Shown here piece by piece: positions 8,982-15,389 of a stretch of DNA of 37,510 bases. The stretch spans positions 1 to 37,510 of the forward strand of contig JALCBR010000034.1 in NCBI GenBank assembly GCA_028066245.1, in the 5' to 3' direction. Positions within the stretch are counted from its first letter, which is position 1; each line of letters starts with the position of its first letter. This DNA is from Pirellulales bacterium (lineage in GTDB: Bacteria > Planctomycetota > Planctomycetia > Pirellulales > S012-138). Under the pieces are notes generated by a model that was not told the origin of the DNA, ran no database searches, and saw only the letters and a program-made list of their open reading frames with translations. The translations under genes and the position numbers were made by a program.

Positions 8982-9224
8982 TTGTGTTAGATTCCTTGCG
9001 TAACGAAGACGATCGACCCACCGTACGTGCCGACAGTATCTCAGGTCGGGCAGTCGTTGTCGCGGGCCAAAATCTTTCGCTGCGTTTCTACACGATAGAG
9101 TGAGGATAAAAGGCCAAGGCGAAATCCTTGATCAACACTGCTGACGAAGCGTTAGAATAACGGACCTGACGAGATTAGGCTGCCCTTGGCGAGCGACGAT
9201 CGCCGTAGAAAGAAGGAGTTATTG

Positions 9225-10622
9225 ATGTCCAGGCGTTTGATGCTGTTTTGCATCGTGGTTGTCGCGGCCATTGCTGGGTTGCTGAAAGCGGTGCCCTTCA
9301 CCCAGCAGCCAGCGAATCAATCTGCCCAAGTTGTCGAATTCGACAAGATGTATAACCAGCGCTACGCTGGCCAGAAGCCGCAAGAGGGCGAGACCATCCC
9401 TAACGTGGATGTTTTTGCCGCTGACGGTCAACCTTTCGCTCTGGAGAGCACACGGGGCAAATATACGGTGCTGGTCTTCGGTTGCCTGACGTGACCGCCG
9501 TTTCTCAGAAATGTCTCCGGTCTGGAGACTGTGTATCTGGATTATGCCCGCAAGGACGTGCAGTTCTACTACGTGTACAAGTCACTCGCTCACCCAGAGA
9601 TCAATAACTTTGTTCAGCCGGTGACGCTCAAGGAGCGATTGATGCATGTCGCCGAGTTCAATCGTCGCACGAACTCGCAGATCCCATGGCTATGTGACAA
9701 CATGGACAATGAGTTGGCGGCCACCATGGGTGGAGCCCCCAATGGCGAATACATCCTCGACCCGCAAGGCAAGCTGATTCGCAAACGATTCTGGAGCAAC
9801 CCGGATACGCTCCGCGCAGATTTGACCGAGTTAGTTGGCGAAGTGGAAAACCCAACACGAGTGGTCGATATTGACGTTGAGTTTGCGGTTGAGCCCAGGG
9901 AAGTCGCCAGCGGGGTTTTGCCGGCATTAGAAATGCCCGCAGGTTTGGTACCAATCCTGACGGAACCGGTCGTTAAGGATGAGACTCCTTTCTACGTCAA
10001 GCTGCGTGCGGAAGCATCACAGCGATTGGTGAACAGAGGCCAAGGCCGCGGCAAGCTGTATCTGGGTGTTTATCTCGATCCGATCTACAAGGTTCACTGG
10101 AATAACAAAGCTGGCCGCGTGCAGGTGAAAATCGCTGCCAATGACGGGATCCTGCTTTCAGAAACCTTGCTGGATGCACCTGAGGTGGCAGAACCGGCTG
10201 ATGTTGATCCACGGCAATTCCTCTTGGATGTTAATGTCAGCAACGTTGACGATCCGCTTGAGATCACCGTCAACTACATCGCCTGTGATGACGCGGAAAC
10301 GTTCTGCATGCCCGTTTCGCAGCAGTACCGCGTGACGCTGAAACAGCAGCGCAGCGGCGGCTCGCGTCCCGGAGTCTTCATGCCGCAAATGTTCGCCAAG
10401 GTCGCGGACTTTGACACCAATGGAGATGGCAAGATCACCAAGAGCGAACTTCCCGCAGGCCGCATCTCGCTCTACCTGGGTCACTTGGATCGCAACTTTG
10501 ATGATGTCATCGACAAGGATGAGATCGAGACGTTTCTGCGGATGATGAACAACGGGCGCGGCTTTACATCAGATCAAAACGATGGTGGATCCGCAGCCAA
10601 CAGCGGTGGTGATGGAAGATGA
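9225..10622 (+). CDS. Iodothyronine-deiodinase-like selenoprotein with C-terminal EF-hands (TGA = Sec90)
   Basis: The frame opened by the ATG at 9225 (AAGGAG six bases upstream) reaches an in-frame TGA at 9492-9494 and then stays open in the same frame to 10622, giving 465 residues if TGA is read as selenocysteine. The context VLVFGCLT-U-PPFLRNV matches the deiodinase active site, where vertebrate enzymes have NFGSCTUPPF. The match continues downstream: KDVQFYYVYKSLAHPE, LKERL, a D-rich stretch and GEYILDPQGKL fit the thioredoxin-like deiodinase fold. A membrane anchor or signal (LMLFCIVVVAAIAGLL, residues 5-20) puts the protein outside the cytoplasm. A beta-rich middle domain and two canonical EF-hand loops (397-408 and 422-433) follow. 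Standard gene callers would report two truncated ORFs. The real substrate is probably not thyroid hormone; a thiol/selenol redox role is inferred. Confidence 0.9.
9513..9529 (+). promoter_or_regulatory. Bacterial SECIS hairpin for Sec90
   Basis: A perfect 6-bp stem, GTCTCC with GGAGAC, closes a 5-base loop GGTCT, 18 bases after the TGA. The loop sequence is the same as the GGUCU that SelB recognises in the E. coli fdhF SECIS, and the loop G lies within the 16-37-base distance expected for bacterial SECIS elements. The hairpin is inside the coding sequence, as is usual in bacteria. Confidence 0.85.
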
Positions 10623-13673: not shown

Positions 13674-14639
13674 CTACTCACCCATGACGTACGCAAAAAT
13701 CAGCGGTGCGACAATGCTGGCGTCCGAGTTAATCATGAACTTGGGCGCGTCTGCATCTAACTTGTGCCAGGTGATTTTCTCATTGGGAACCGCGCCGGAG
13801 TAAGAGCCGTAGGACGTTGTGCTGTCGGAAATCTGAGCGAAGTACGACCAGTGTCGAGTGTCTTTTCGCTCTAAGTCTTGGATCAGCAGGGGCACAGCAC
13901 AAATTGGGAAATCACCGGCGATTCCGCCGCCGATCTGGAAAAAACCCACACCGCCACGCTGCTCTTCCGCCATGTACCATTCAACCAACTTCTGCATCTG
14001 TTCTGTGCCAGTGCGGACGGCGTGATGGCTTTTGACCATTCCGTCAATCACGCGGGCGGCAAACACATTGCCCATGGTGGAGTCTTCAAACCCGGGCGCA
14101 AAGATGGGAATTTCCATGTCCATTGCTGCCGCCACCCAGGAATGTTCACGGGGGACTTGCATCATGGCGTCCAATTTTCCTTCGCGGATCAAACGGAAAA
14201 TGTAGTCCTGCTGGAAGTGAGATTCGTTCTTCTCCGCGGCTTCAATCCAATAGTCCAGCAGCAGCGCCTCAATTTTGCGAAAAGCCGACTCCGGGATGCA
14301 GGTGTCGGTGACTCGGTTGAAGCCAGCGTCGCGGATGGCGACTTCGTCCGCTGCGCTCAGGGCAAGATAGTCGGGCGTCGTCTTGTACTCGTCATGGGCA
14401 ATCAGGTTGAAGATATCCTCTTCCAGGTTGGCTGCTGTCGTGCTGATGGCGTGCACTTTCCCCGCACGGATCATCTGGGCGAGACTGATCCCCAATTCCG
14501 CCGTACTCATGGCTCCCGCCATGGCCAGGAACATCTTGCCGCCCTCTTGCAGCAGGTTTCTCCAAGCCTTCGCGGAGGCCAGGGTCTCGCGAGCGTTGAA
14601 ATGGAGGAAATTTCGCTCCATGAAGCTGGAAATCGACAT
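13674..14639 (-). CDS. Deoxyhypusine synthase-like enzyme
   Basis: A 321-residue member of the deoxyhypusine synthase family, which uses NAD and spermidine to move an aminobutyl group to a lysine (eIF5A in eukaryotes and archaea) or to another amine. Family motifs: AMAGAMSTAELG near residue 41, ISTTAANLEEDIFNLIAHDEY near 65-85, GGGIAGDFPICA near 240, and SGAVPNEKITWHKLDADAP, where Lys293 sits at the place of the catalytic lysine (human WGK). A C-terminal DASIVAPLIFA matches the family end. The ATG at 14639 has GAGG five bases upstream. Bacteria lack eIF5A, so the product is probably homospermidine or a related polyamine, or a modified unknown protein; this is inference. Confidence 0.9.
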   Translation of the reverse strand: MSISSFMERNFLHFNARETLASAKAWRNLLQEGGKMFLAMAGAMSTAELGISLAQMIRAGKVHAISTTAANLEEDIFNLIAHDEYKTTPDYLALSAADEVAIRDAGFNRVTDTCIPESAFRKIEALLLDYWIEAAEKNESHFQQDYIFRLIREGKLDAMMQVPREHSWVAAAMDMEIPIFAPGFEDSTMGNVFAARVIDGMVKSHHAVRTGTEQMQKLVEWYMAEEQRGGVGFFQIGGGIAGDFPICAVPLLIQDLERKDTRHWSYFAQISDSTTSYGSYSGAVPNEKITWHKLDADAPKFMINSDASIVAPLIFAYVMGE

Positions 14640-15389
14640 CGCCACCTCACATCTGGGACTTGTGAACACCTTTGGGGCCTGGGCTGAAAGGCGAATCCTA
14701 CGACTCGGCAGCGCTGACGCAACCGCCTCTGGCCATGAACGAGTGGCCAACCGTGGAGGTTCGACAGCGCGAAAACGATCCCCATGTAGGAGGGAGTCTC
14801 AACTTCGCGAACTGTCCACGTGTGTCTCCAGCTTTGCGATTCGCCCCGGCTGCGAGAAGAATGGTAGCCCGTTGAACCGTCCACCGTTTGAGTGAAGCTA
14901 CGGGTGAGATCCTTATCCGTTGCCCGAAAACACCGCGATTTACGAGCCGTGTCGGAGGTCTGCCCTCACGCTTGGCCTCGGATGAGAAACACGCCCGGTG
15001 ACTTTTTCGTCCCGCGTTTGGCTGAGTTCCCGCACGGAATCTGTGGTAATTTGGGTAATCTCGGCACTGAAAGCTTGACAGCAGTCAATACCTGAAAATA
15101 ATTAGTCGATTCACTTGGGAATCGCTCCCAACAGCCGCGAGACGTCACTTTTGTGGCACCTTATCGCGTTGAACGGATGCAAGGTTTGAACGCCTAATCA
15201 ACCTACGGCGTTTTTTCTGCTGAAGCGCGCACTCAAGGCGGAGCGACCAAGAATCTGGCTCGAGAAACGTGCCTGCCTTTTGCCCAATGGAATGTGGCTC
15301 TGCCTTGATGGAACCGGCTGACTCTCCATGTAAGCCGATCCCAGTAACCTGTTTTCCCATGGACAACGTAGTTAGGAGTTTGTGAAAAA
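14640..15389. other. Long intergenic region with one promoter candidate
   Basis: About 750 bases without a convincing gene. A promoter-like pair TTGACA / AATAAT with a 16-base spacer is at 15075-15102 on the plus strand. A small perfect hairpin (TTGGGA, 5-base loop, TCCCAA) lies near 15116-15132. Frames such as 14672-14875 and 15145-15366 have no coding character that I can see. Confidence 0.5.
15075..15102 (+). promoter_or_regulatory. Possible sigma-70 promoter upstream of the 71-aa gene
   Basis: TTGACA is a full -35 match, then a 16-base spacer and AATAAT (5 of 6 of the -10). It would leave a leader of about 280 bases before the start at 15390. Confidence 0.4.

Follow-up and report, generated by a model that had tools for sequence, protein, structure and literature searches.

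The window, i.e., the whole stretch of 37,510 nucleotides of Pirellulales DNA that was analyzed, contains a gene that we predict to code for a modular selenoprotein combining a hydrophobic N-terminus, a deiodinase-family redox domain with the selenocysteine (Sec), a DsbD-alpha-like domain and two EF-hand loops (Table 1). Because of the in-frame TGA at 9492, ORF calling under the standard code (table 11) lists two pieces, 9186-9494 and 9531-10622, the second with a GTG start at 9531; the frame is open from this TGA to the terminal TGA at 10620-10622. An earlier interpretation made without database searches (the sequence-only reading) had proposed a single gene split by the TGA, and its coordinates and the FGCLT-U-PPF motif agree with our results. 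It had further described the 376-codon continuation as clearly deiodinase-like: the frame does continue, with the deiodinase-like portion confined to residues ~49-205. Elsewhere in the window are two deoxyhypusine-synthase-like genes, both on the reverse strand (73-1155, 0.00023, below cut-off; 13674-14750, 1.5e-43); this family is more familiar from archaea and eukaryotes.

Table 1. Features of the predicted selenoprotein gene, with positions in the window.
Feature	Position	Strand	Basis or remark
Ribosome-binding site AAGGAG	9213-9218	+	Read off sequence; 6 bases upstream of ATG 9225
Complete gene of the selenoprotein (465 residues; residue 90 is Sec; terminal TGA at 10620)	9225-10622	+	Sequence; 64 homologs
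Predicted hydrophobic export signal or signal anchor, residues 1-34	9225-9326	+	Sequence; AF2 helix 8-19, low confidence; homologs' N-termini signal-peptide-like
Deiodinase-family thioredoxin-fold domain, residues 49-205	9369-9839	+	PF00837, AhpC-TSA, NF038285, hhalign, Foldseek
Cys87, proximal (putative resolving) cysteine of CxxU	9483-9485	+	Invariant, 60/60
TGA codon for Sec90 (motif FGCLT-U-PPF)	9492-9494	+	TGA 55, TGT 6, TGC 3 among 64 homologs
bSECIS apical stem-loop GTCTCC-GGTCT-GGAGAC	9513-9529	+	Starts 21 nt from T of TGA; covariation; lost in Cys homologs
DsbD-alpha (nDsbD)-like domain, residues ~230-376	9912-10352	+	PF11412 in homologs; hhalign; Foldseek, weak TM
Cys354, first of DsbD-alpha-like pair	10284-10286	+	59/60 homologs; aligned with DsbD_N cysteine
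Cys361, second of DsbD-alpha-like pair	10305-10307	+	59/60 homologs; aligned with DsbD_N cysteine
EF-hand loop 1, residues 397-408 (DTNGDGKITKSE)	10413-10448	+	PF13202/PF13405, ~1e-5
EF-hand loop 2, residues 422-433 (DRNFDDVIDKDE)	10488-10523	+	PF13499 pair 394-450, E 0.0023

A first scan of bacterial genomes recovered 11 homologs, whose profile, when run against 398 sampled genomes of the class, detected the family in 49 of them. Ten of the initial 11 have TGA at the Sec codon, with TGT in the version from Rhodopirellula maiorica (L026). Among the 64 parsed sequences, which include that of the window and a few instances of the same genome in two collections (e.g., K23_9, L023/L040), this position is occupied exclusively by TGA or, in nine sequences, by one of the two Cys codons. 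Conservation extends across the whole length of the protein 3′ of the TGA, and this part evolves under purifying selection (dN/dS ~0.09-0.19 for pairs close enough to measure). Given the presence of TGA in 55 of the 64 sequences, the replacement by Cys in the other nine and the purifying selection downstream, the in-frame TGA cannot be attributed to chance. In the family tree, a clade of three Cys versions (L036, L072, L078) is nested inside Sec-containing relatives, and one of its genomes (G566) still possesses selA. In one genome (K23_9, G672; L023 and L085), a Sec version and a divergent Cys version of the family coexist.

In the RNA immediately 3′ of the TGA, using a covariation test restricted to the 50 distinct Sec sequences, we detected a seven-pair stem capped by an apical loop of the form GGUCU or AGUUU. 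In this stem 89.4% of the cells are paired, and in 26 cells both sides have changed; the covariation score was reached by none of 500 shuffles and by no slid register. At one pair of the stem, 27 of the 50 sequences have a C-A mismatch, and the stem is absent in all nine Cys homologs. The element displays the features expected of a bSECIS, namely a hairpin just 3′ of the UGA with a G in the apical loop. This assignment depends on the comparison of homologs, because the window RNA folded on its own does no better than shuffles; the sole match in an Rfam scan of the gene region was a chance one below the gathering score.

Consistent with Sec decoding, the genome to which the window belongs codes for SelA, SelB, SelD and a tRNA-Sec (selC, anticodon TCA), each scoring over its cut-off. 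Across the family, selA scores over its cut-off in 43 of the 49 genomes. Of the remaining six, five (G373, G550, G560, G660, G713) have Cys forms only, and the other (G702), a draft of about 100 contigs, has a Sec form. The hypergeometric probability of such a split, computed by hand and ignoring kinship, is ~6e-5. In a genome from another class of the same phylum (G278), selD, selB, selA and tRNA-Sec are arrayed on one strand with a family member directly after them (L125 3690-9649, reverse strand). Such a complete Sec cluster with one selenoprotein is unusual.

The TGA is an ordinary stop codon in this genome, terminating the gene itself and other ORFs of the window, and the GTG at 9531 could serve as the start of a separate gene; the frame downstream might accordingly be such a gene or a pseudogene behind a true stop, a product of sequencing error, or a continuation in which TGA is read as Trp. 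The same use of TGA as a normal stop excludes a general change of the code, and the 55 TGA carriers exchange the codon with Cys alone, never with Trp. Together with the covarying hairpin, the purifying selection downstream and the full Sec machinery, this leads us to reject the stop, error and Trp explanations, to which we assign a negligible probability. We conclude, as firmly as sequence by itself permits, that TGA 9492 is decoded as Sec. The sequence-only reading had placed a Sec at the position of that in deiodinases, and the codon exchange, hairpin, sel genes and alignment all sustain this; of the two observations that it had named as adverse, neither applies, as selA, selB, selC and selD are all present, and the homologs show TGA/Cys exchange with a conserved downstream frame rather than a stop with no continuation.

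Sequence and structure comparisons place residues 49-205 in the deiodinase family of thioredoxin-like domains. This region recovers the Pfam T4_deiodinase model PF00837 with marginal significance (1.1e-6; 28.5 bits versus a gathering cut-off of 27), AhpC-TSA (2.3e-6) and the Dio3 sequence (4tr3; 7.7e-6). The NCBIfam model deiodinase_rel (NF038285) gives 2.8e-17 and 63 bits, a domain match that lies below the whole-protein equivalog cut-off of 250. In profile-profile comparisons with hhalign, the family aligned with 30 bacterial Dio-like proteins across 150 columns (E 2.2e-27). Foldseek searches with an AF2 model of the protein (mean pLDDT 79) retrieved DipZ first by E-value, followed by the thioredoxin folds of ResA/DsbE (TMt up to 0.85) and by Dio2 (0.74). 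The TUPPF and AHP segments are conserved in the family; its active site, FG-C-LT-U, has a Cys at -3 (60/60) and a Leu at -2 and hence departs from the CxU of iodothyronine deiodinases, as well as from the FG-[SN]-x-T-[UC] of the classical bacterial Dio-like set. One copy of the classical type exists in the same genome (L028 1351-2145, forward strand, contig C8), a second selenoprotein with the motif GSYT-U-PPFL, whose TGA at 1618 is closely followed by a short, perfectly paired hairpin, TTCGCC-A-GGT-T-GGCGAA. A classical PF00837 protein occurs within ~3 kb of the CxxU family member in several genomes (L124 3841-9297; G462, G494, G560), which hints at a common role.

C-terminal to the Sec domain, residues ~230-376 likely form a DsbD-alpha-like redox domain. 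The Pfam DsbD_N model (PF11412) matched nine of 12 homologous domains (best 7.9e-6), whereas the window's own domain searched alone against it gave no match. As hhalign comparisons with the DsbD of the genome itself lacked power, being limited to between one and three sequences, we turned to a set of 28 DsbD_N sequences drawn from members of this class. Against this set the profile of the domain aligned at both cysteines and yielded E 3.3e-6 (probability 88%), compared to E 0.18 for a reversed profile and 0.11 for a Dio profile. A PDB sequence search with the same profile returned no match. In Foldseek searches with a separate AF2 model of the domain (pLDDT 86), the best-ranked matches were a FixG-related domain followed by entries for nDsbD, at weak TM values of 0.41-0.47, i.e., below 0.5. 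The family-level sequence match, obtained through homologs and the profile, is accompanied by a candidate redox Cys pair. The genome also codes for a full-length DsbD with N, TM and thioredoxin parts (C116), and for a protein that ends in a DsbD_N-like domain (2.8e-10) and lacks the DsbD membrane part (L091 1452-2216, reverse strand, contig C25), another free-standing DsbD-alpha. The EF-hands that follow are present in 11 of 12 homologs. At the other end, the hydrophobic N-terminus and the signal-peptide-like starts of the homologs suggest that the protein is likely extracytoplasmic. The sequence-only reading had envisaged a membrane-anchored, deiodinase-like protein with an extracytoplasmic redox role: the Dio-family fold of residues 49-205 and the extracytoplasmic location are in line with this, a permanent anchor is not established, and the CxxU rather than CxU site, the marginal PF00837 score, the DsbD-alpha-like domain and the EF-hands, which it had overlooked, set limits on the likeness.

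Taking these predictions together, we think it reasonably probable that the protein is exported and acts as a Sec oxidoreductase, probably with the activity of a peroxidase or a disulfide reductase. In such a scheme, UGA 9492 would be decoded as Sec by SelA/B/C/D with the aid of the bSECIS hairpin, and Sec90 would reduce an oxidized substrate outside the cytoplasm, preferably a peroxide, in second place a protein disulfide and in third an organohalide. Cys87 may resolve the oxidized selenium by forming a selenenyl-sulfide with Sec90, in the manner of Cys124 and Sec126 in human DIO1 (PMC9141512). The C354/C361 pair of the DsbD-alpha-like domain would then re-reduce the Cys87-Sec90 pair, with the full-length DsbD of the genome carrying electrons across the membrane from the cytoplasm to the fused domain. 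The EF-hands may bind Ca2+ and stabilize the protein.

An all-against-all comparison of the flanks found neighbors conserved among close relatives alone, no neighbor conserved family-wide and no operon partner indicating a substrate. In the window, the neighboring genes are unrelated and include those for an SDR and a PEPCK. One alternative is that the same selenoprotein acts as a TlpA/ResA-type protein-disulfide reductase with little peroxidase activity, e.g., in cytochrome c maturation or the repair of oxidized envelope proteins, and receives its electrons through the DsbD-alpha domain. The ResA/DsbE structures are the closest single-domain matches of the model, and CxxU corresponds to a dithiol/selenol pair of the CxxC type, both in keeping with this possibility; we nevertheless judge it rather unlikely, as deiodinase_rel matches the domain sequence better than ResA does (2.8e-17 versus 0.0012) and disulfide reduction does not generally need Sec. 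Still less probable, in our estimate, is a reductive dehalogenase in which Sec90 strips iodine or bromine from small aromatics outside the cytoplasm by chemistry like that of animal deiodinases. The Dio-family homology across 150 columns and the conserved TUPPF and AHP segments would fit such an activity, against which stand the alteration of the active site to CxxU, the expectation that bacteria lack thyroid hormones (PMC1088965) and the lack of any dehalogenation gene neighborhood around the window gene or other family members. Deiodination of thyroid hormones by this protein is not supported.

Returning to the exported, DsbD-fed oxidoreductase that we prefer, we lean, if slightly, toward the broader proposal that Planctomycetes possess a family of self-contained extracytoplasmic selenoenzymes, in which a deiodinase-derived CxxU domain is coupled to its own DsbD-alpha module such that electrons from transmembrane DsbD power Sec chemistry, be it peroxide, disulfide or organohalide reduction. 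This would join two textbook systems in one chain, namely selenium catalysis of the deiodinase type and a transmembrane supply of electrons like that of DsbD, and, if true, would show the re-reduction route of a bacterial deiodinase relative; in the human enzymes this step is still under study. In practical terms, standard annotation would split the selenoprotein of this family in two in dozens of genomes. The natural Sec-to-Cys switches beside SelA loss should offer a useful setting in which to ask why selenium is retained in some cases and lost in others.

The 2005 study that reported deiodinase-like Sec proteins from bacteria proposed a redox role for them (Zhang, Fomenko and Gladyshev, PMC1088965), and such proteins have been counted in ocean metagenomes (PMC2398784); the selenoproteins of Planctomycetes were described in 2016 in an article whose main text does not use the word deiodinase (PMC4807772). 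The window protein shares with the bacterial deiodinase-like selenoproteins (PF00837) the place of Sec in a Dio-family thioredoxin fold, the TUPPF motif, a bacterial SECIS, Cys homologs and a proposed redox role. The known family is, however, given as UxxC by reviews from 2022 and 2026, with a single domain ID in PMC13188914, a description that sets apart the present one with its CxxU, invariant Cys at -3, fused DsbD-alpha-like domain and EF-hands. With the animal deiodinases (DIO1-3; 4tr3, 9h48) it has in common a homologous domain, the Sec position, TUPPF and a proximal Cys able, in the animal enzymes, to form a selenenyl-sulfide (PMC9141512); this Cys lies at -2 in animal DIO and at -3 here, the AH region is only partly common to both, and the window protein has extra domains and no thyroid-hormone context.

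Its C-terminal domain likely has the same fold as DsbD-alpha (nDsbD; 1l6p, 1jpe), with the Cys pair aligned; the domain is fused to a Sec catalytic domain and has a Cys spacing of x6, whereas nDsbD is fused to the membrane part of DsbD. The top Foldseek match, spanning >300 columns, is the C-terminal region of Mycobacterium tuberculosis DipZ (2hyx), a TlpA-like thioredoxin plus a beta domain. DipZ is not a selenoprotein, and, as the whole-chain TM is only 0.38, its two-domain arrangement is not common to the window protein. TsoB (NF045694, PMC13188914) is another selenoprotein described as DsbD-fusion-like (rhodanese/DsbD), but it has a rhodanese domain and a UxxxxU motif with two Sec residues, and the window protein has no NCBIfam match to NF045694. 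No NCBIfam model fits the whole window protein, and the phage collection had no match to the gene. A full-text search for deiodinase and DsbD together, with subscription literature mostly outside its reach, retrieved a single item, the 2026 review, in which the mention of DsbD concerns TsoB. The combination of CxxU with DsbD-alpha was not found in the literature or family libraries searched, and we regard it as probably an undescribed variant of the deiodinase-like selenoproteins.
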